Source of the DNA: Candidatus Zhuqueibacterota bacterium
Lineage (GTDB): Bacteria > Zhuqueibacterota > QNDG01 > JABMRT01
Assembly: GCA_013202295.1 (NCBI GenBank)
Contig: JABMRT010000160.1
Location: forward strand, 1 to 39,702
Length of the DNA: 39,702 nt
Direction: 5' to 3'
The position numbers were made by a program, and so were the translations under genes. Below, one piece after another: positions 28,808 through 39,702 of the stretch. Each line of letters begins with the position of its first letter. Position 1 is the stretch's first letter. Below the pieces are notes generated by a model. It was given only the letters and a program-made list of their open reading frames with translations. It did no database searches and had not been told where the DNA came from.

Positions 28808-29764
28808 CTAATCTTTAACACAACGGACAGAGAACCCGTATTGCTTATAGGAGCTGTTCCAGTAGATGTCCGAGTTAAGGTAGCGCAGGGTCAGGTACAA
28901 CGCGTAGTTTGAACTGTACTCGTACGCCGACCAGAAGCGGGCGCGGCTGCCCAGAGAGTAGAAGTAACCTTCAGCGTAGCTACGGTAACCGCCTGGAAGC
29001 GCGGAGAAACCTGTTTCATTAGTCGCGCCTGTGTTGGGATCATCCCAAAGTCCGGTGCTTGCTTCGATTGTACCGGTTGACTTCAGCTTACCGCCAGCGA
29101 CACTGTCACCTCCAAGGTAGGTGCTCAATGTGCTCAACTCCGCGTCCGTGGGCACATGCCAGCCTGTGGGCGCGAGGTTACGGGAATCAGAAACCGCTGC
29201 CCAGTTGTACAGGTAACCATACGTGTCAGCGTTGCTCTCATCCCGACCATAAACACAATAGGCACCTATATTGATAATGGCCCAATCAGCGTCATTAATA
29301 TTCGTGGCAATGGTTTCACCGGTTCGATACTTCGTTACTTTCAGATTCTCCGCCATCCACCACTGGGTACCGATTTTTACGGTCTGATACACATTGCCGT
29401 CTACATCAGTCACGGTTCCGGTTTCGAGTGCGGTTACGCGCACCTTGTATGTGCTGCCGCTGGTGTTGGGATTGTCTGTGTAAAAGTCCCATTCCACGTG
29501 TTTGCCCGTGCCTGGAGAAATGCCGCTTCCCACATCGCCCGTGAGACTGGCGCAGTTTAAAGTCCACGTGGCGCCGTTGTCACTCGACGCCTCGACCACG
29601 ATCTGCTTGTTTTCACCGTCCCCGTCCGAAAGATCATAATAAATATCCACTTTCAGGCTGCCGTCTGTGCGCTGAACGAAACTGACGTTTTCAACCACCG
29701 GCGCCTGGGCAAAGATCAGTGTGGTGCTGAGAAGTAAAATGAGAAAGAGAAGTCTGGTTTTCAT
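28808..29764 (-). CDS. Secreted FISUMP-domain protein
   Basis: The 318-residue product has a signal peptide (about 1-19, ending IFAQ), a beta-sandwich-like region (VENVSFVQRTDGSLKVDIYYDLSDGDG..., about 22-105), and a C-terminal FISUMP domain (Fibrobacter succinogenes major paralogous domain, about 118-318). The FISUMP signature is clear: VKIGTQWWMAENLKVTKYRTG, YGYLYNWAAVSD, LAPTGWHVPTDAELSTLSTYLGG, ETGFSALPGGYRSYAEGYF and YGFSVRCVKD. The fold is C-type-lectin-like and probably binds a surface ligand. It has no Por sorting tail, unlike most of its upstream neighbours, so how it stays on or leaves the cell is unclear. AGGAG lies seven bases before the ATG. Confidence 0.9.
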   Translation of the reverse strand: MKTRLLFLILLLSTTLIFAQAPVVENVSFVQRTDGSLKVDIYYDLSDGDGENKQIVVEASSDNGATWTLNCASLTGDVGSGISPGTGKHVEWDFYTDNPNTSGSTYKVRVTALETGTVTDVDGNVYQTVKIGTQWWMAENLKVTKYRTGETIATNINDADWAIINIGAYCVYGRDESNADTYGYLYNWAAVSDSRNLAPTGWHVPTDAELSTLSTYLGGDSVAGGKLKSTGTIEASTGLWDDPNTGATNETGFSALPGGYRSYAEGYFYSLGSRARFWSAYEYSSNYALYLTLRYLNSDIYWNSSYKQYGFSVRCVKD

Positions 29765-29790: not shown

Positions 29791-30807
29791 TTACCGCATC
29801 ATTAACACCTTCTGCGTTTTTACTCCATCCGCGGTCTGCAGGGCAATCACATAGGTGCCGGTGGCCATCTGATTGCCCGCATCGTCCCGGCCGTGCCAGT
29901 AGAAGTTGTAACTGCCGTAGCCCTGAAAATCATCCATCAGGGTTTTAACCTTACGGCCCAAAAGATCATAAACTGTAATCTTAACCTGACCCGATTCGGA
30001 TAAATGATACCCAATCTTTGTCTGCGGATTAAACGGATTGGGGAACGGCTGATCGAGGGCCGTCACATCAGGCGTTTCCGGCAATGTGAGCAGGATCACA
30101 TCATACACATGCGCCACACCTTTGATGTTCACATCACTAAGACGGTAGGCGTAGACCGCTCCGGCCTGGACGGTCACATCTGTAAACGCATAGTCCGTGC
30201 GCACAGAAGTGTTGCCCTGGCCAATGAGAGCGTCATGGGTCTGATAGGATGCAATGGTTTGCCACCTCACATCCCTGGGCGGGTTGGAACCCGCCCCTAC
30301 GGTTCGTTCTAAAATAAAGCCCAGATTGTCTGTTTCACTCTGCGTGATCCACTTGACAAGCACACCCTGGAGAACCGGTTCCGCAGAAAAGGCATTAAGT
30401 TCCACGGACAGAGCTGCATCGGTATAAAAATCCCAGACCGTTGAGAAATCTCCGGTACCAGCCATGTTCGTTGCGGAGATCTTCCAATAATAAGTCGTTG
30501 CCCCGGATAAACCTGTAATAGTATGGGATGTGACAGTCAAGGCGCTTTCATCAAGAAACAGGCTGCTGAAGTTGTCTGCGGTTGACACCTGAAGATTGAA
30601 TGAGGCCGCGTGATCAAGCGGGTCCCACTCAACCTCGACCGGCTCAGTGAAGATTGTGCTGCCATCCGTAGGATTCGAGAGCGTGGGCGCTCCTGGCGGC
30701 ATGGATGTGATCGATCCTGAAATTGATAGACCAGAGCCACTGTCGGCAAAACAAGTCTGTTCAATAAAAAATGTGAAAACAATCAGGAGGAGGATCAATT
30801 TCCGCAT
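29791..30807 (-). CDS. Secreted fibronectin-III protein with shared T9SS tail
   Basis: The 338-residue product has a signal peptide (about 1-21) and an FN3-like domain (PPGAPTLSNPTDGSTI ... HTITGLSGATTYYWKISATNMAGTG, about 35-128). The shared module follows: LSVELNAFSAEPVLQG, a variable insert, the YRLSDV fibronectin-like domain and the Por sorting signal FPNPFNPQTKIGYHLSESGQ ... TYVIALQTADG. Its tail is the most diverged of the cluster. The palindrome GGGCGGGTTGGAACCCGCCC lies in frame at 30277-30296 and encodes part of GAGSNPP. AAGGAA is eight bases before the ATG. It is expected to be exported by type IX secretion and to act at the surface; the ligand is unknown. Confidence 0.88.
   Translation of the reverse strand: MRKLILLLIVFTFFIEQTCFADSGSGLSISGSITSMPPGAPTLSNPTDGSTIFTEPVEVEWDPLDHAASFNLQVSTADNFSSLFLDESALTVTSHTITGLSGATTYYWKISATNMAGTGDFSTVWDFYTDAALSVELNAFSAEPVLQGVLVKWITQSETDNLGFILERTVGAGSNPPRDVRWQTIASYQTHDALIGQGNTSVRTDYAFTDVTVQAGAVYAYRLSDVNIKGVAHVYDVILLTLPETPDVTALDQPFPNPFNPQTKIGYHLSESGQVKITVYDLLGRKVKTLMDDFQGYGSYNFYWHGRDDAGNQMATGTYVIALQTADGVKTQKVLMMR
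30277..30296. repeat. In-frame translated palindrome 1 (20 bp)
   Basis: GGGCGGGTTGGAACCCGCCC is a perfect 9-bp inverted repeat with a 2-base loop, and CTAC follows on the plus strand. It is translated as GAGSNPP between the conserved ILER and WQTIAS of the tail. Six other tails carry a palindrome at the same codon position. Confidence 0.8.
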
Positions 30808-30914
30808 AATTTTATTCCTTGATCTTTGAAGGATTCCTATGACTGGATGTCAAAATTACGAGGATTCAATCCTTCTGTGAGAATGGGACGATCAATTTTT
30901 CAAAGGACGATAAA

Positions 30915-30941
30915 CCTGTTCGGTTTTAAAAACCTGACAGG
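30915..30941. repeat. Diverged CCTGxCAGG hairpin
   Basis: CCTGTTCGGTTTT and AAAACCTGACAGG form an imperfect stem with two mismatches, in the 149-bp gap between two tail-bearing genes. It is related to the perfect hairpin at 28754-28786. Confidence 0.5.
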
Positions 30942-30956
30942 ATTGAATTCATGTTC

Positions 30957-32257
30957 TTACCGCATCAACAGCACCTTCTGTGATTTGACTACATCTCCCG
31001 CGATCAGCCGCAGAATATATGTACCGGATGCGGCTTGCCGCCCCGCATCATCTTTGCCGAGCCAGTGGATTGAGTAGCTACCAGCGGATTGCTGTACGTT
31101 TTGAAGCATACGGGATACGAGACGACCATTGACATCATAGACATTGAGGGTTACGGATGATTGCTGTGCCAGTTTATACACAATCTTGGTCTGCGGATTG
31201 AAGGGATTGGGGAAGGGGGGCTCCAGTTGAGTTTCTTCCGGATTTTGTATTTCCATTGTAATTTCAAGTGCATCCAGGATGGTCACATTGCCTTGCGTAT
31301 CTACATCCGATAAACGGTATTGGTAGGTCATGCCGGATTTGGCGGTGACATCTACATATTCGTATTCGGTTTGGGATGAGGTGTTGCCCTGGCCCTGTAA
31401 ATCCTGATGGGTTTGAAAAGAGGCGATGGTTTGCCAATCAGTTTCATCCCCACCCCGGGCGGATCGAAAATCCGCCCCCATAAAGCGTTCGAGGATATAT
31501 CCAACATTATCGACCTCCGATTCTGTGATCCATTTGAGGAGGATGCCGTCCGGAACGGCTCGCGCGGAAAATGTGCTGAGTTCAACGGGCAGGGAAGTGT
31601 CATTGATGGTTGGCAAGGAGCCTCACCAAGAACACCTAATAATTGCATTGTTATACCGGCGGGAAAGTTACTTGGGCTATATGCTCCATAATATGCAGAT
31701 ATGTTATTATTGTCCCCTAATACAGTTCCGATTATCCACATTTTATCTCCACCTGATTCCGCACGGTATAAATAAATGAGCCCCATCTGATAGTAATTTA
31801 CGCCATCTGAAAGCGTTGGGTGTATTCCCATATTGACATAGAGACCTTCCACAGCTTCCGTACCGGCATCACCGACAATCATATTTGTTTCAGGATTGAT
31901 TATATGAATATCAGGCATTGGAAATTCACCCAATGCGCCATAATGATCCATTGTTATGCCAGCTGGAGAGCTGCTTGTATTATATGCAGCATAATATGCA
32001 TCTCCAGGAGCACTATCCCCCAATGCTTGGCCGATTATCCACATTTTTTCTCCACCAGATTCCACACGATATAAATAAATGGGTCCCATCTGATAGTAAT
32101 CCACACCATCTGACAGAGTAGCGTGCGCTCCCATATTGGTATACACACCATTCGTTGTAGCTGTGCCTGCACCGCTGACGAGCATATTTGCTGAATATGC
32201 ATAGGACAAAATACTGAAATATGCAATGATCAGGATAAAACGTTTGAACAATTTCAT
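30957..32257 (-). pseudogene. Secreted NGVY-repeat protein with shared T9SS tail, frameshifted
   Basis: Two frames together make one gene. From the ATG at 32257 the first frame gives a signal peptide and two repeats of about 90 residues (NMLVSGAGTATTNGVYTNMG and NMIVGDAGTEAVEGLYVNMG, each with YYQMGxIYLYRxESGGxKMWII). It then runs into sequence that reads as the wrong frame of the tail. The second frame (from about 31616) carries the normal tail from PTINDTSLPVELSTFSAR to the LLMR end. One extra base near 31615-31616 (AA instead of AAA on the plus strand) would give GEAPLPTINDTSLPVEL, matching the end of the first repeat (GEFPMPDI). It is either a real inactivating deletion, a phase-variable site or a sequencing error. 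The intact protein would have about 433 residues. Confidence 0.8.
31457..31477. repeat. In-frame translated palindrome 2 (21 bp)
   Basis: GGGCGGAT, a five-base loop CGAAA, and ATCCGCCC, at the homologous tail position. One extra base relative to the 20-bp copies changes the reading of the downstream part, so the insert reads GADFRSARGGDE instead of GADHDPP before the tail returns to WQTIAS. Confidence 0.8.
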
Positions 32258-32299
32258 GATATTACTCTTTGTTAAATTAATATAGATACACACACTTCA

Positions 32300-33286
32300 T
32301 CACCGCATCAACAGCACCTTCTGCGACTGCACAACCTCTCCCGTGATCAGGCGCAGGATGTACGTGCCGGATGCTGCCTGCCGACCCGCATCATCTTGAC
32401 CAAGCCAGTGAAAGCTATAACTGCCTGCACGTTGTTCTTCATTCAAAAGGGCCATTACCTTGCGGCCCAGTATATCGTAGACAGTAATTGTCACCAATCC
32501 GGATTCTGCCAGCTGATAACTGATTTTTGTCTGCGGATTGAAGGGATTGGGGAAGGGGGGAGCCAACACAGTTTCTTTCGGCGCATCGGGAAGCGCAATC
32601 TGAATCGCATCAGTCACATGAGCCGTACCCGTTCTGCTCACATCACTAAGGCGATAGCTGTACGTCCAGCCAAGCTTGGTATTTCCGTCAATAAAGGAGT
32701 AATCTGTGCTCGATGAGGTGTTGCCCTGACTTTGCAGATCTGGATTGGTCTGGTATGAGGCGATGGTTTGCCATCCCATCCCCACCTCACTGGGCGGATC
32801 GTGATCCGCCCCTACATTTCTTTCTAGAATAAATCCGAGATTGTTGGTTTCCGATTCCGTGGACCATTTGAGCAGAACACCATTCTGAGCAACTTCAGCA
32901 GAGAATCGGGAGAGTTCAACTGGCAGTGCGGCATCATAGACAGATGAGGGTGCAGGTGGCGCACCAATCGCATCATTTTCAATACTCCATAATCCATCTG
33001 GGGGGTAATCACCAGGAACTCCCGCGGTATTGTTCTTCACATAATAATAAATGGATGTTCCTCCACTCGGTGAGATCACCCAGCCCACGCTATTCCAGTA
33101 TCTGATTGCACCTCCTAGCCCCGGTTTGTCATAAATGGGTCTGCCGTTATAGGTGCCGTTTTCGTAATAGACACCATTACAACTGACTCTTCCTGCGCCG
33201 GTTACTGTGATTGTTTGAGATGATGCAACTTGATAGAATGCAATTAATAAAATGGGTATAATCCAGAGCAATTGTCTTGTTCGCAA
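32300..33286 (-). CDS. Secreted NGVY-repeat protein with shared T9SS tail
   Basis: The 328-residue product starts at a TTG (33286) supported by a strong AAAGGAG seven bases upstream. After the signal peptide (about 1-23) comes one repeat of the same kind as in the downstream neighbour (TVTGAGRVSCNGVYYENGTYNGRPIYDK ... GWVISPSGGTSIYYYVKNN ... GLWSIENDAIGAPPAP). This module recalls the GAG...NGVY...NGRPxY...W.I...YY repeats of many secreted proteins. The shared tail begins at LPVELSRFSAE and ends FPNPFNPQTKISYQLAESG ... ILRLITGEVVQSQKVLLMR. The palindrome at 32792-32811 encodes GADHDPP. It is separated by 42 bp from each flanking gene in the tandem. Confidence 0.87.
   Translation of the reverse strand: MRTRQLLWIIPILLIAFYQVASSQTITVTGAGRVSCNGVYYENGTYNGRPIYDKPGLGGAIRYWNSVGWVISPSGGTSIYYYVKNNTAGVPGDYPPDGLWSIENDAIGAPPAPSSVYDAALPVELSRFSAEVAQNGVLLKWSTESETNNLGFILERNVGADHDPPSEVGMGWQTIASYQTNPDLQSQGNTSSSTDYSFIDGNTKLGWTYSYRLSDVSRTGTAHVTDAIQIALPDAPKETVLAPPFPNPFNPQTKISYQLAESGLVTITVYDILGRKVMALLNEEQRAGSYSFHWLGQDDAGRQAASGTYILRLITGEVVQSQKVLLMR
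32792..32811. repeat. In-frame translated palindrome 3 (20 bp)
   Basis: GGGCGGATCGTGATCCGCCC is a perfect 9-bp inverted repeat with a 2-base loop, followed by CTAC. It encodes GADHDPP and is the same sequence as the copy at 34986-35005. Confidence 0.85.
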
Positions 33287-33328
33287 AAAATTCTCCTTTG
33301 CTGAGTTCAGTAATTCTTGAAGTACCGA

Positions 33329-34417
33329 TTATCGCATCAATATCACTTTCTGAGATGTCACAACATCTCCCGCAATGAGACGCAGGATGTACGCGCCTGA
33401 CGCGGCCTGCTGACCCTGATCATCCTTACCCAGCCAGTGGATTGAGTAACTGCCAGACGATTGTTGTAAGTCCCGAAGCAGTGTGGAGACCAAGCGTCCA
33501 TTGACGTCATAGACATTGAGTGTGACGGAGGATTGCTCCGCCAGCTTATACGAAATCTTTGTCTGCGGATTGAAGGGATTGGGGAAGGGAGGCTCGAGTT
33601 GAGTTTCGTCCGGATTTTGTATTCTCATTGTAATTTCGAGGATGTCTAAAACTGTGATGTTGCCATCGATGTCCGCATCGGAAAGACGATATTGATAAAT
33701 CATACCGGATTGGGCGGTGACATCCGTGAATGTGTAATCAGTGCGTTGTGACGTATTGCCCTGGTCCGTGAGGGCGGGATGGGTTTGGTATGAGGCAATT
33801 TCATCCCATTGCAGGGACAAGGCATGCCTTGTCCCTGCTGCACGCTCAAGAATGAATCCGAGGTTGTCGGTTTCGGATTCGGTTGTCCATTTGATGAGTG
33901 CGCCAACCGATGTGGATTCTGCTGAGAATGATGAGAGTTCGACGGGGAGGGTGGCATCAACCGTTAAATCTGCGCTTGCCGGATCGGCAACGTTTCCCCC
34001 GCCTTCAATAGTAAATGAAAGCATAGAAGTGGTATTTGTATATGTACCGGGAGTAGCACCGGCTGGTATCAAAACCTGGATGCTGAATGTTTCTTGACCA
34101 CTAGTGGGCAGGTTGCCACCGGTTAATGTAAGGGTGGAAGTGCCGGTTAATTGTGATCCCGGTCCACAAGGATTAGAAGGCAATGGACCTGATACCAGCA
34201 AACCTGTGCAGCATGCATCCAAATCATCAGTAAATGAAATGTTTTCCATTAGATGATTGCTATCGAAATTTCTAATCACAAATTCCAGAGTAACTGTTTG
34301 GCCGGGCTGACCAGAGTTACCAAATGATTTTTCAAACTGCTCGACACTCGTAAAACTGTTTGCCGTACAAATTGTCAAGACGAATAAAATCAACCATTTC
34401 ATGTAACTCTTTTTCAT
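33329..34417 (-). CDS. Secreted DUF11/CARDB-like protein with shared T9SS tail
   Basis: The 362-residue product has a signal peptide (about 1-21), then a DUF11- or CARDB-like beta-sandwich (FEKSFGNSGQPGQTVTLEFVIRNFDSNHLMENISFTDDL ... FSIQVLIPAGATPGTYTNTTSMLSFTIEGG, about 28-148) of the kind that builds extended surface stalks. The shared tail starts at LPVELSSFSAES and ends with the Por signal. At the tail insert position its palindrome differs from all others: a 28-bp perfect GCAGGGACAAGG/CCTTGTCCCTGC type at 33811-33838, read as AAGTRHALSLQ. AAAGGTGG precedes the ATG. Type IX export is predicted; no ligand is evident. Confidence 0.87.
   Translation of the reverse strand: MKKSYMKWLILFVLTICTANSFTSVEQFEKSFGNSGQPGQTVTLEFVIRNFDSNHLMENISFTDDLDACCTGLLVSGPLPSNPCGPGSQLTGTSTLTLTGGNLPTSGQETFSIQVLIPAGATPGTYTNTTSMLSFTIEGGGNVADPASADLTVDATLPVELSSFSAESTSVGALIKWTTESETDNLGFILERAAGTRHALSLQWDEIASYQTHPALTDQGNTSQRTDYTFTDVTAQSGMIYQYRLSDADIDGNITVLDILEITMRIQNPDETQLEPPFPNPFNPQTKISYKLAEQSSVTLNVYDVNGRLVSTLLRDLQQSSGSYSIHWLGKDDQGQQAASGAYILRLIAGDVVTSQKVILMR
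33811..33838. repeat. In-frame translated palindrome 4 (28 bp, different type)
   Basis: A perfect 14+14 palindrome starting GCAGGGACAAGGCA and ending TGCCTTGTCCCTGC. It occupies the tail site where the other genes have the GGGCGGAT type, so two unrelated palindrome sequences have used the same spot. It encodes AGTRHALSL. Confidence 0.85.
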
Positions 34418-34487
34418 ATTACACCACCTTTTTAATATTTTAATAAAATTTTTGGGAGATTCTTTATGCCCTTGAAAGACTCTAATC

Positions 34488-35336
34488 TTACCGCATCAAC
34501 AACACTTTCTGTGACTGAACGAAATCTCCAGCGTTTAGACGCAGGATGTATGTCCCGGATGCAGCTTGTCGTCCCAAATCATCTTTGCCAAGCCAGTGAA
34601 TGGAGTAAGAGCCGGGAGATTGCTGGATATTTTGAAGCAGGCGGGATACCAAGCGTCCATTGACGTCATAGACATTGAGTGTGACGGAGGATTGCTCCGC
34701 CAGCTTATACGAAATCTTTGTCTGCGGATTAAAGGGATTGGGGAAGGGGGGCTCAAGTTGAGTTTCGTCCGGATTTTGTATCTTCATTGTAATTTCGAGG
34801 ATGTCTAAAACTGCGATGTTTCCATCCGTATCCACATCCGATAAGCGATATTGATAGGTGGTGCCGGATTGGGCGGTGACATCCGTGAATGCGTATTCAG
34901 TGCGGGACGAGGTGTTGCCCTGGCTCTGAAGATTCTGACTTGTTTGGAATGAGGCGATGGTTTGCCACTCTGCCTGCCCGGCCCCGGGCGGATCGTGATC
35001 CGCCCCTACGGATCGTTCTAAAATATATCCGAGGTTATTGGTTTCAGATTCGGTGGACCATTTGAGGAGGATGCCGTTCGATATAATTTCTGCTGAGAAG
35101 GAGGAAAGCTCCACGGGAAGTGAAAGTTCCGATGCCGACGTTCCCAATGCAGAGCCATCGTAGGAACCACCGTGGTATTTGTAAGGTGTTGATAAAAACC
35201 AATCCAGAGCTGACGTGCCAAGAGCATAACCGTCATAGGAGCCGCCATGGTATTTATTGGCATCCTGAGAAAAAACCGCAACACAAGCCAATAACAAGGC
35301 AAATAGCAAAAAAATTGAAATCGGTATTGTCTTCAT
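34488..35336 (-). CDS. Short secreted GGSYDG-repeat protein with shared T9SS tail
   Basis: The product is 282 residues from the ATG at 35336, chosen because AAAGG lies eight bases upstream and a normal signal peptide (MKTIPISIFLLFALLLACVAVFSQ) starts there; an ATG at 35354 would add six residues. The head is tiny: two copies of YHGGSYDGxALGTSA within about 45 residues. After it comes the shared tail (LPVELSSFSAEIISNGILLKW ... LLMR). The GGSxDG motif recurs in other secreted proteins of this bacterial group. The tail's DNA around 35050-35100 is identical over a long run with that of the gene at 36808-38979. The palindrome at 34986-35005 encodes GADHDPP. Confidence 0.87.
   Translation of the reverse strand: MKTIPISIFLLFALLLACVAVFSQDANKYHGGSYDGYALGTSALDWFLSTPYKYHGGSYDGSALGTSASELSLPVELSSFSAEIISNGILLKWSTESETNNLGYILERSVGADHDPPGAGQAEWQTIASFQTSQNLQSQGNTSSRTEYAFTDVTAQSGTTYQYRLSDVDTDGNIAVLDILEITMKIQNPDETQLEPPFPNPFNPQTKISYKLAEQSSVTLNVYDVNGRLVSRLLQNIQQSPGSYSIHWLGKDDLGRQAASGTYILRLNAGDFVQSQKVLLMR
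34986..35005. repeat. In-frame translated palindrome 5 (20 bp)
   Basis: GGGCGGATCGTGATCCGCCC, identical to the copy at 32792-32811 and followed by CTACGGATCG. It encodes GADHDPP. Confidence 0.85.
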
Positions 35337-35363
35337 TTTAATGACCTTTATCATTTCCTGGTT

Positions 35364-36794
35364 CTAAGGCGCTGAGCGAACACAGCGAAAACCGTTCTCG
35401 TCATACCGAGCTATGACCGTGAAGCCTGCATCAAGGCGGTCAGACACACGTACGTAGGAGGCATTAAAGTTCCAATGGCCGCCGCGGAAGTCGGAGCCTG
35501 AAGCATTCGATCCCGGCCAATCGGCATTGTCGGCGTTTCCATTTGTACTTAAAGCGCCATTTCCTTGTGTGCCTGTAAATACTCTGCCAGTAGAATTAGC
35601 AATAGTCACAGTGCGCTCATATAAATTGCCGCTCATCTCCATAATGCCGTAATATGTTGCGCCTGCCTCTGCTCTGGAGGTGCTGCCCGCGGCAAAAATG
35701 CCACAACGTAGTGGGCCGTTAATACTGCCATCGGTGGTCGAATAAGATGCGTTACCCGTAGGTTCAGAGGCTGCATTGGTCACCGTTGCATTGGGGGTAC
35801 CGTCATTGCTCAACGTATAGGCAGAACCGGCAATATTTGTGTTACCCCAGGCATACTCATTGGCCACGGGCGCCAGGGTGCCCCGGCAGGCCTTCTCATA
35901 CTCCATCTCGGTCATGGGCCGAAGGCCCGACCAGTCCGCATAGGCCGCGCCGTCCGCCCAACTGAGATAGTTGCACGCCCGGTCAGGCACAGTTGCTGTA
36001 TAGTTACCAAACGAACCGGATATAGTGTGTCGGTAATCGCTTTTATTCGGGTATCGAGTATTGTCCTGACTGTCCGTAAGGAGAGATAAAAAGTCCGCAT
36101 ATTGCCCCTGGCTGATCTCGTATTTCATGCAGTAATAGGCGCTGTAACCATTGGGCCAGCTGGCATTTGCAGGGGCGGTTTGCCCTGTCGGATAGCCCCC
36201 TTCCGCGCTCCCTGAAAATCCGCCTGTGCCGCTCGGGGCCGTGGTCGCGTCGCCTGTATTGATGGTGGTGAGGGTAAAACAAGAGGTTTCACTGCCTCCG
36301 CTGCCTGCGGCAAAGGCACCGGTGGGCACATACACCATCTCGACGGCAAAGACCTTCAGCGTGAAGGCGGCGTCATCGGCCAGGCCATCCGTGCCGTATT
36401 CCCAGCGGAGCTGCACATCATTGAGGCTGGTGCTGCCGCTACCGTTGGCATTGCGGTAAATAAACACGCCCATGCCCGCACTGCCGGTCTCACCCACAGA
36501 ACAGGTGTAACCCGAAGGGATTGTGTGATTGCCCCCGGTGGTGTTCAGCGTGGCGTGCTGCCAGTCGTTGCCTGTTTCCTTGTATTTCACAAACACCCAA
36601 GCCGCATCCCAGTTGACGATGTCGCGGAAGGAGTTGCTCCATGAGAGATTAAACTGAACCATGGCGTAATCGCCGGTTGAATTTACACTGGTAATTATGG
36701 GTGTGCCCACTTGAATGTTGTTGGCAAAAGCGGGCAATGCAATCACCAGACTTAGAAGAACTGAGATTGTAATAATAAGTTTGAGACATTTCAT
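35364..36794 (-). CDS. Secreted SUMF1/FGE-sulfatase-domain protein, possible hypervariable C-terminus
   Basis: The 476-residue product has a signal peptide (about 1-24, ending AFA) and a beta-rich N-domain (about 27-150, IQVGTPIITSVNSTGDYAMVQFNLSW...). A SUMF1/formylglycine-generating-enzyme-like domain of C-type-lectin fold follows (MVYVPTGAFAAGSGG, YYCMKYEISQGQYADFLSLL, LSWADGAAYADWSGLRPMTEMEYEKACRG, YGIMEMSGNLYERTV). It has no Por tail. The final segment DFRGGHWNFNASYVRVSDRLDAGFTVIARYDENGFRCVR sits at the ligand-binding face. Ten of its twelve unusual residues use NNC or NNT codons, as expected if derived from AAC/AAT template codons. That resembles a diversity-generating-retroelement variable region. 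AAAGGAG precedes the ATG. Enzymatic sulfatase maturation is unlikely. Confidence 0.85.
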   Translation of the reverse strand: MKCLKLIITISVLLSLVIALPAFANNIQVGTPIITSVNSTGDYAMVQFNLSWSNSFRDIVNWDAAWVFVKYKETGNDWQHATLNTTGGNHTIPSGYTCSVGETGSAGMGVFIYRNANGSGSTSLNDVQLRWEYGTDGLADDAAFTLKVFAVEMVYVPTGAFAAGSGGSETSCFTLTTINTGDATTAPSGTGGFSGSAEGGYPTGQTAPANASWPNGYSAYYCMKYEISQGQYADFLSLLTDSQDNTRYPNKSDYRHTISGSFGNYTATVPDRACNYLSWADGAAYADWSGLRPMTEMEYEKACRGTLAPVANEYAWGNTNIAGSAYTLSNDGTPNATVTNAASEPTGNASYSTTDGSINGPLRCGIFAAGSTSRAEAGATYYGIMEMSGNLYERTVTIANSTGRVFTGTQGNGALSTNGNADNADWPGSNASGSDFRGGHWNFNASYVRVSDRLDAGFTVIARYDENGFRCVRSAP

Positions 36795-36807
36795 CGTTGT
36801 TTCTCCT

Positions 36808-38979
36808 TTAACGCATCAACAACACTTTCTGAGATTTTATGACATCTCCCGCGATGAGGCGCAGGATATACGTTCCTGATGATGCCTGCTGACCCGCATC
36901 GTCTTTGCCGAGCCAGTGTATGGAGTAACTGCCTGGGGATTGCTGAACGTTCCGAAGCAAGCGGGATACGAGACGACCATTGACATCATAGACATTGAGG
37001 GTGACGGATGTTTGTTCCGCCAGTTTATACGAAATCTTGGTCTGCGGATTGAAGGGGTTGGGGAAGGCCTGTTCGAGCCTGGTTTCATCCGGGATTTGAT
37101 TGTCTATCGTGATTTCGAGAATATCCAGCACAGTGATGTTTCCATCCGTATCCACATCTGACAGACAGTATTTATAGGTCGTGCCGGATTCGGCGGTGGC
37201 ATCCACATATTTGTATTCCGTTTGGGAAGAGGTGTTGTCCTGTCCCGCAAGGGCGGGATGGGTTTGGTAAGAGGCGATGGTTTGCCACCCCGCCGCATCC
37301 CCGCCGGGCGGATCATGATCCGCCCCTACGGATCGTTCTAATATATATCCGAGGTTGTTGGTTTCAGACTCGGTGGTCCATTTGAGGAGGATGCCGTTCG
37401 ATATAATTTCTGCTGAGAATTGAGAAAGTTCGACAGACAGGGAAGCGTCTACTGTGATGACCACATCATTGCCGTCATCACCGATGTATGTGATAGCCGC
37501 CGGGATACCCGAACCAAGGAAATCCATGCTGACAATGGCGCCTTCTGCCAGTTCATTGAACGTGCCAACAACTGCGTCGGTGTCATCGTTGTCGATGATC
37601 GTGTATGTGTCGTTATTGGAGGGCATGAATCCGCCGTAGGAGGAGGTGTTCAGCGTAACATCGTCCGTAAGAGTTACCCCACCGGTTACCTTGAGCTGAT
37701 CGTGATAGCCGCTGCCAGTTCCGGGGGTGGTTCCTCCGAACTCTGCATTGAAACCGCACGGTCCTTCACCGAAGGTGAAATTGCCGTCTATCTCCAGGAT
37801 GCCCGGTGACTGTCCCGGCGCCGCATTTCCGAAGATGGCGACAAAGGGCGCGGTTACATCCGTGCCCGCCCCGTCATGAACTACGTCACCCGTCATGAAG
37901 GAGACCGGATCTGTGAATGCGGCTGTCAGTACATCCACCGTACCGGAGAGGTCATTGCCGATACCAATATCCATGAATCCGCTTACGAAATAGGCAATTT
38001 CAGTGCCTGACAGATTCAGGGTGCCACTGCCCCCGCCTACACCAATGGTCGTGGAAGCGGTATGCGGTATAAACTGAAGCATGCCTGCTGCTGCGAGGTT
38101 GCCGCCCACGGAGACATTATCACATAGTATTCCAATATGACCGAAACCGGAAGAGGTGACTGCCGCGGTGTTGGCAAAAGATTCGGCGTTCACGCTGAAC
38201 GACCCTGCTCCAAAACTCACAGCGCCATTGACATTCACTTCATCCAATCCCGCATCGCCGTTGAACTCAATGTCTACATCATAGGCTGAGCTGTAACCGG
38301 AGACATTGATGACATCATCGCCGGTTCCGCCGTTGATTGTTAGTGAGCTGGTGGGATTGTTGAATGTGACATTCTCACTTAGAGTGGATCCGATATTCGA
38401 CTGTTCCGATCCCAGATTGGAAAGGGTGATGGTCTCGGCTCCTCCGGTAAAGGTGAATTCACGGTCTGTTGCATTCAGATTGTCGGTTACTGGCTCAAGT
38501 CCGGTATATTCAATGATGAAATCGGTCATAGCATCCCCATTGAAATCGAACTCCACGTTGCCATCATGTTCGTTGTAGAAATGATGGATTACTTTGGTAC
38601 ACCGACCGCTATTGAACTCCAGCACATCAAAGCCGCCCTCTCCGCCGTCTACCTGAACGATTCCACGAGTAGTCTCGGTAAAATCCACCTGGAAACAATC
38701 ATCTTCATGGGCTGTACCGGACACGGTCAGGTTGATCCGATTCATGGTTTGCTCGTTCAGAAATTCAGAGCCGTCTCTATTCACGATCAAATGCTCGTCA
38801 TTAATTTTAATGGTGGAGATTCCTCCTCCGGAAGGCAATTGAATTCTTTTCTCATCCACGGATCTGGTCTGATTTAAAGAGTCAGAGAATAACTGGCCTG
38901 TTAGAAGGCAGATGATGCTTATGATTGATAGCAGTGATAATCGTTGCAATCGCTTATTCGTGAGATGTTGAGCTGGCAT
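36808..38979 (-). CDS. Large secreted beta-helix-like adhesin with shared T9SS tail
   Basis: The 723-residue product has a signal region (about 8-33) and a long strand-repeat head (residues about 45-535) rich in Gly, Asn, Asp and Thr. Phrases such as SLTINGGTGDDVINVSG, GSGTLNLSGTEI, NFTFGEGPCGFNAEFGGTTPGTGSGYHDQLKVTGGVTLTDDVTLN and TYTIIDNDDTDAVVGTFNELAEGA are typical of right-handed beta-helix and passenger-like surface proteins. The shared tail follows (LSVELSQFSAEIISNGILLKW ... FPNPFNPQTKISYKLAEQ ... LLMR). AGGAGG precedes the ATG. The palindrome at 37306-37325 encodes GADHDPP. It is the largest of the tandem and probably an adhesin or matrix protein exported by type IX secretion. Confidence 0.88.
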   Translation of the reverse strand: MPAQHLTNKRLQRLSLLSIISIICLLTGQLFSDSLNQTRSVDEKRIQLPSGGGISTIKINDEHLIVNRDGSEFLNEQTMNRINLTVSGTAHEDDCFQVDFTETTRGIVQVDGGEGGFDVLEFNSGRCTKVIHHFYNEHDGNVEFDFNGDAMTDFIIEYTGLEPVTDNLNATDREFTFTGGAETITLSNLGSEQSNIGSTLSENVTFNNPTSSLTINGGTGDDVINVSGYSSAYDVDIEFNGDAGLDEVNVNGAVSFGAGSFSVNAESFANTAAVTSSGFGHIGILCDNVSVGGNLAAAGMLQFIPHTASTTIGVGGGSGTLNLSGTEIAYFVSGFMDIGIGNDLSGTVDVLTAAFTDPVSFMTGDVVHDGAGTDVTAPFVAIFGNAAPGQSPGILEIDGNFTFGEGPCGFNAEFGGTTPGTGSGYHDQLKVTGGVTLTDDVTLNTSSYGGFMPSNNDTYTIIDNDDTDAVVGTFNELAEGAIVSMDFLGSGIPAAITYIGDDGNDVVITVDASLSVELSQFSAEIISNGILLKWTTESETNNLGYILERSVGADHDPPGGDAAGWQTIASYQTHPALAGQDNTSSQTEYKYVDATAESGTTYKYCLSDVDTDGNITVLDILEITIDNQIPDETRLEQAFPNPFNPQTKISYKLAEQTSVTLNVYDVNGRLVSRLLRNVQQSPGSYSIHWLGKDDAGQQASSGTYILRLIAGDVIKSQKVLLMR
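37306..37325. repeat. In-frame translated palindrome 6 (20 bp)
   Basis: GGGCGGATCATGATCCGCCC is a perfect inverted repeat, one loop base different from copies 3 and 5, and followed by CTACGGATCG. It encodes GADHDPP. Confidence 0.85.
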
Positions 38980-39186
38980 GGCTGACCTCCTGATACTGAA
39001 TTGTGAAGATTGTTTATTACCTAAAACATGATATAAATAGGATCCGTTTGGGGAAAATTATTTGCATGAACAATCTGTCTTTTCATGATTTGAGAAGATC
39101 ATTTTAATATAACTCCCCTCCAGACCAGTTCCAAAAAACTTCTTGCCGGGAGCAGACCTCGGCTATGTCGAAGTAGAGGTGTGTTT
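38980..39186. other. Intergenic gap before the partial tail gene
   Basis: This 207-bp gap between the adhesin gene and the partial upstream gene is the longest spacer in the tandem and could hold a promoter for the leftward cluster. I see no clear hairpin, RNA gene or open frame. Confidence 0.4.
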
Positions 39187-39702
39187 TTACCGCATTAACA
39201 AGACTTTCTGCGATTTGATTATATCTCCTGCAATTAAACGGAGAATGTATGTGCCGGTTGCGGCTTGTCTTCCCATATCATCTTTGCCAAGCCAATGGAT
39301 GGAGTAACTGCCTGCTGATTGTTGTACATTCCGAAGTAGTGTAGATACCAATCGTCCATTAATGTCATAGACGTTGAGGGTCACGGATGATTGCTCAGCC
39401 AGTTTATACGCAATCTTGGTCTGCGGATTGAAGGGATTGGGGAAGGGGGGTTCCAGTTGAGTTTCTTCCGGTTTTTGTATCTCCATTGTAATTTCTATGA
39501 TGTCCAACACTGTGATGCTACCATCCGTATCTACGTCCGATAAACGATATTGATAGGTCGTGCCGGATTGAGCGGTGACATCCACATATTCGTATTCGGT
39601 TTGGGACGAGGTGTTGCCCTGTCCCGCGAGATCGGGATGTGTTTGATATGAGGCGATGGTTTGCCACTCCGCCTGCCCGGCCCCGGGCGGATGGCCATCC
39701 GC
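39187..39702 (-). CDS. Partial secreted protein: shared T9SS tail, head beyond the window
   Basis: Only the C-terminal 171 codons are in the window; the frame stays open to position 39702. It reads ADGHPPGAGQAEWQTIASYQTHPDLAGQGNTSSQTEYEYVDVTAQ... and ends FPNPFNPQTKIAYKLAEQSSVTLNVYD ... LLMR, the standard shared tail. The GTG at 39585 is an internal valine, not a start. The palindrome at 39685 is cut by the window end. The N-terminal head and signal peptide lie to the right of the window. Confidence 0.9.
   Translation of the reverse strand, partial: ADGHPPGAGQAEWQTIASYQTHPDLAGQGNTSSQTEYEYVDVTAQSGTTYQYRLSDVDTDGSITVLDIIEITMEIQKPEETQLEPPFPNPFNPQTKIAYKLAEQSSVTLNVYDINGRLVSTLLRNVQQSAGSYSIHWLGKDDMGRQAATGTYILRLIAGDIIKSQKVLLMR
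39685..39702. repeat. In-frame translated palindrome 7 (cut by window end)
   Basis: GGGCGGATGGCCATCCGC, presumably completed by CC beyond the window. The loop differs from the other copies (ATGGCCAT in place of ATCGTGAT), so the stem is kept while the centre changes. It encodes ADGHPP. Confidence 0.75.

Follow-up and report, generated by a model that had tools for sequence, protein, structure and literature searches.

A probable pair of orphan DGR-type variable proteins in a Candidatus Zhuqueibacterota draft genome

Described DGR targets and architecture of the gene

TvpA of Treponema denticola and TaqVP of Thermus aquaticus (PMC4891356, PMC6328139) combine an FGE-subtype C-type-lectin domain with a variable region (VR) at the extreme C terminus and AAY-type variable codons. 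DGRs are known to target FGE-sulfatase as well as Fib_succ_major domains (PMC4159848), and in T. denticola, DGR target genes persist in isolates without the reverse transcriptase (RT) and the template repeat (TR; PMC4891356). The gene analyzed here, from a Candidatus Zhuqueibacterota organism, shares the domain type, the C-terminal position of its putative VR and, tentatively, the codon type with TvpA and TaqVP (Table 1). W441, an aromatic residue that stays invariant next to the first variable site, has a counterpart in TaqVP, where the nonvariable W349 lies next to the variable D348. Unlike TvpA and TaqVP, the product carries an additional beta domain at its N terminus, and its genome yielded neither a DGR RT nor a TR. 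A putative target gene is present while a core DGR is absent from the genome as assembled, as in the RT/TR-less T. denticola isolates; however, those isolates were compared within one species, whereas the present case concerns a single draft genome.

The window, that is, the whole contig G000:C142 (39,702 bases), belongs to a 5.15-Mb draft genome in 303 contigs (95.65% complete), and the genus is represented by one genome. The gene product is laid out as a likely signal peptide (judged from the sequence alone, without a predictor), the N-terminal beta domain, the FGE-subtype C-type-lectin domain and the putative C-terminal VR. The VR is built on the scaffold RGGxW..xxVRVSDRxxA.xTxxxRxxxxGFRCVR and contains 15 hypervariable codons (440, 442, 443, 444, 447, 454, 455, 458, 460–462 and 464–467), all within the last 45 residues. 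The AlphaFold model is modest (mean pLDDT 66), with 10-residue blocks at 62–95 over most of the N-terminal domain and at 49–80 in the VR, where its confidence is low, and we therefore drew no surface argument from it. Outside the N-terminal domain, the top Foldseek match was FGE 6muj (E = 9e-6).

Table 1. Coordinates of the features discussed, in the window unless another contig is given
Feature	Coordinates	Strand	Remarks
DGR-type variable protein gene (candidate)	35364..36794	-	ORF, 476 aa, C-terminal end RGGHWNFNASYVRVSDRLDAGFTVIARYDENGFRCVRSAP; homologues full-length, ≤58% identical
PF03781 FGE-sulfatase (C-type-lectin-like) domain	35376..36212	-	residues 195–473, E = 1e-14
Variable region (putative)	35364..35501	-	residues about 432 to stop; limits inferred from homologous repeats
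N-terminal beta-rich domain	36330..36722	-	predicted to resemble CLIPPER domain of fibrillar adhesin; Foldseek 9ifr, E = 2.3e-4, prob 1.00
Second DGR-type gene (candidate), FISUMP (PF09603/TIGR02145)	28808..29764	-	Tyr-rich tail aligns to verified template peptide of G059
Secreted-protein gene array with FlgD_ig/Por_Secre_tail C-terminal sorting domains	29791..39585	-	flanks variable gene
Drt8-type defence RT, sole RT found in genome	L001 1111–2700 (G000:C245)		PADLOC 2.5e-116

Within the flanking array, a sorting-domain repeat of about 300 nt occurs in five copies that are 78–83% identical to a reference copy. These type-IX-like sorting domains of the neighbors would fit an island of genes for surface proteins; the variable-gene product itself lacks one. 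We infer that this product is an extracytoplasmic, adhesin-like surface protein that binds ligand. Also in the array, a gene for a small sorting-domain protein (34488–35354, minus strand) starts 10 bases after the variable gene, and the N-terminal part of its product holds two copies of KYHGGSYDGxALGTSA. The protein encoded at 31352–32293 (minus strand), which has no Pfam match, contains an internal duplication with a period of 303 nt (about 76% identical DNA).

Homologous tails, their template repeats and their codons

Two homologues, L020 from a Bacteroidetes MAG (CAINEZ010000472) and L031 from an Omnitrophota MAG (JAQTTQ010000066), adjoin DGR-type RTs with LPIGNLTSQ and YMDD motifs. They share the full-length architecture, the scaffold and the variable sites of the Zhuqueibacterota protein, to which they are about half identical; unlike the gene studied here, they have an RT and a TR within about 1–2 kb. 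In 60-nt windows, TR and VR differ at 16 (L020) and nine (L031) adenine sites and nowhere else. In a longer alignment, the adenine-only match of L020 spans from just before the RGG motif to past the stop codon, while that of L031 reaches the 3' edge of the repeat, other mismatches beginning beyond it; beyond both repeats the alignment is lost, as would be expected. The tail studied here is homologous over the same residues to these verified adenine-only TR/VR pairs. With respect to the two template peptides, RGGNWNNNATNLQVSDRNNAANTNNNRNNNYGGRGVRVAP and RGGNWNNDTTNARTSDRNNAANTNPDRNNNNGGRCVNTFP, respectively, it matches 20 of 30 and 17 of 31 non-Asn positions and carries a residue other than Asn at 12 of 14 and 11 of 13 Asn positions.

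The first-pass annotation had pointed to twelve positions at which a template would encode Asn, ten of them with codons ending in a pyrimidine. In our alignment, the twelve are exactly the template-Asn sites of L020 that bear a non-Asn residue in the product (H, F, Y, L, D, F, V, I, A, Y, D and E). All ten codons are present (CAT 440, TTT 443, TAC 447, CTT 454, GAT 455, TTC 458, GTC 460, GCT 462, TAT 464 and GAC 465); the two exceptions, ATA 461 and GAG 466, do not fit an AAY template. The counts were correct and the twelve positions correspond to Asn in the template of a homologue, but taken by itself the pattern does not exceed chance. Given a gene-wide fraction of pyrimidine-ending (NNY) codons of 65%, P(≥10/12) is 0.16 and P(≥13/15), for all variable codons, is 0.066, and seven of the ten codons encode H, F, Y or D, residues that have NNY codons only. 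At the template-Asn sites of L020 and L031, whose templates are homologous to the gene rather than its own, NNY codons number 12 of 14 (P = 0.08) and 12 of 13 (P = 0.03). As the codon bias of the gene itself is weak, we drew significance from the homologues.

Scanning the genomes of bacteria and archaea turned up relatives at 79 loci that cover most of the product. The tail scaffold RGGxW…VSDRxxA…R…G(F/G)RxVR, with its 15 hypervariable sites, is common to about 90 full-length homologues. In an alignment of 93 sequences, G433, R437, G438, G439, S451, R453, G468, R470 and R473 are near-invariant, while the positions between the invariant tail residues are among the most variable of the whole protein; the ten codon sites discussed above lie at or above the 90th percentile of entropy. 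The nearest 35 homologues are only 7–13% identical at the 15 sites, no matter whether the remainder of the domain reaches 40% or 80% identity, and the product shares 0–3 of the 15 with its twelve nearest relatives, to which it is 53–63% identical elsewhere in the domain. Pairs more than 80% identical elsewhere (few, and mostly Kordia-type) retain 73–100% identity at the variable sites, whereas pairs of 65–80% identity in the remaining set share 16–24%; the high-identity bins are sparse (eight pairs at 75–80% in the nearest set and none above), so that the contrast between the nearest set and the remaining one is not at matched identity.

Among freely codable variable residues, 198 of 259 (76%) have NNY codons, compared to a fraction of 0.56 (56%) expected from the remainder of the domain (P = 8e-12, an approximate value since the sequences share ancestry and the 15 sites were chosen after the alignment was seen). 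Kordia-type and Cyclobacteriaceae-type members show no NNY excess, and the tails of Kordia and Winogradskyella members are identical or nearly so. A sister gene (L013, in genome G009) has a diverged scaffold, and a template repeat sought for it in G009 was not found. Viral contigs contained neither a relative of the protein nor a match to the scaffold. As to the other FGE-domain genes of the Zhuqueibacterota genome, the VSDR scaffold was absent from the tails of L004 and L006, which were read, and a motif search gave no tail for L005 and L007. Viewed against these homologues, the tail is probably a DGR variable region.

A second candidate target and the search for a cassette

A gene of the FISUMP type, noticed upon reading the neighborhood, lies 5.6 kb from the variable gene. 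The DGR of genome G059 (L133), to whose template peptide its tail aligns, has a TR/VR pair with 13 adenine-site and no other differences in 60 nt. At the template-Asn positions of G059, the FISUMP gene has NNY codons in 22 of 23 cases (P = 2e-4) and in ten of ten where the residue is freely codable (P = 0.008), P values that are uncorrected for selection through reading the neighborhood. VR layout and Asn-to-NNY codons are as in known FISUMP targets of DGRs (PMC4159848; L133/G059); unlike for L133/G059, neither a DGR RT nor a TR was found for this gene, the adenine-rule pattern (≤3 mismatches) detecting no template in the draft genome, only the tail itself.

The first-pass annotation had noted neither an RT nor a template repeat in the window. 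This observation holds, and the absence extends to the whole draft genome, which it had suggested searching for a DGR RT and for a repeat differing from the tail only at adenines. The only RT (PF00078) in the draft is of the Drt8 type; it lacks the LPIGNLTSQ motif and was rejected as a candidate DGR RT. A profile of six DGR RTs likewise detected only this gene in the genome, and weakly (E = 6e-8). For the variable gene, a strict adenine-rule pattern (≤3 mismatches), BLASTN and a search for a template-like peptide revealed no template in the draft, only the match of the tail to itself. Tandem repeats and ordinary paralogues reported by a TR/VR scanner (e.g. L073, L034, L025) were set aside, since none lies at the kind of gene tail expected. 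One of 12 genomes of the class, G005, which is of the same family, has an intact DGR RT (E = 1.9e-168). This RT (L124 347–1456, G005:C177) is accompanied by an Asn-rich template-like repeat near 1441, RGGSWNNNPENVRAANRNRNTPDNRNNN, of a different type.

We regard the absence of a DGR from the draft as weak evidence, because four homologues (L017, L022, L024 and L051) have NNY codons at 15 of 15 sites, yet no strong DGR RT was found in their genomes, and because fragmented metagenome assemblies hide DGRs that act on remote targets, according to the authors of the largest survey (PMC8144416). With an assembly in draft state, the missing RT and TR therefore do not refute a DGR reading. However, two target types would presumably require a template each, and neither was found, which makes loss of the DGR a serious option. 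The initial proposal of a DGR variable region was thus upheld for the nature of the tail, given the RTs and adenine-only TR/VR pairs of homologues at the same residues and the saturated, divergence-independent variation; it was not supported for the action of a DGR in this organism. Present-day action of a DGR on the variable gene is conceivable, and we lean slightly against it.

Alternative readings and proposed diversification

The variable gene could instead be a fixed relative, i.e. a C-type-lectin adhesin of common descent with DGR targets that is passed on like any ordinary gene, its tail varying only through slow divergence as in Kordia. The conserved Kordia and Winogradskyella tails agree with this idea, as do the P value of 0.066 for the gene's own variable codons and the lack of a detected DGR RT or template repeat both in the draft genome and in the genome of the nearest relative. 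Slow divergence would, however, have to account for an intact VSDR-type scaffold alongside 0–3 of 15 identities at the variable sites, for NNY codons at 13 of the 15 sites as opposed to 9–11 of 15 in Kordia-type members, and for a second DGR-type gene nearby with its own codon signal. We therefore hold a fixed relative to be unlikely. That the pyrimidine endings merely reflect general codon usage of the gene and the amino acids chosen would fit the gene-wide NNY fraction, the seven obligatory NNY codons and the P value of 0.16; but the position-specific evidence from the homologues is independent of codon usage in this gene, and the TR/VR pairs of the homologues outweigh such an artefact, leaving it hardly credible at all.

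The PF03781 match and the best Foldseek hit would be explained by an ordinary enzyme of the formylglycine-generating or EgtB-like type, its conserved GFRCVR end being similar to VRs in appearance only. However, NCBIfam matches are weak and far below enzyme cut-offs, and many of the sites that vary most in the family lie at the end of the domain. Moreover, in an alignment made by eye on RGG/GGS anchors, the positions of the catalytic Cys pair of human FGE, which follows the GGS motif, are occupied by F443 and V448. FGE activity of the product is therefore unlikely, and we judge an ordinary enzyme to be very improbable as an account of the tail.

We consider it likely, from sequence comparison, that the tail is a DGR variable region and that the variable gene and the FISUMP gene encode orphan DGR-type variable proteins of known target kind; the variable gene itself has presumably been diversified by a DGR. 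In such a process, a DGR RT would copy a template repeat while mutating adenines, and the mutated cDNA would replace the end of the target gene. Through mutation of adenines in the template, Asn codons AAC/AAT would turn into NNC/NNT. The structural scaffold (RGG.W, VSDR, R, GxR.VR) would stay fixed, and an adhesin-like surface protein would thereby acquire a randomized face for ligand binding. The cassette missing from the draft may be unbinned, may reside on another element or may have been lost, leaving an orphan target. Diversification of both the FGE-type and the FISUMP-type protein in trans by a non-chromosomal DGR, e.g. on a phage, a plasmid or another unbinned element, appears rather improbable.

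On the reading as orphan DGR-type targets, a broad family of secreted proteins diversified by retroelements, which spans Bacteroidota, Ignavibacteriae, Omnitrophota, Verrucomicrobia and others, would gain a lineage. DGR targets would, furthermore, be shown to be recognizable without an adjacent RT, via divergence-independent variation at fixed sites. The orphan target pair poses the question of whether DGR targets persist and continue to be diversified once a resident DGR is gone, or where there is none.
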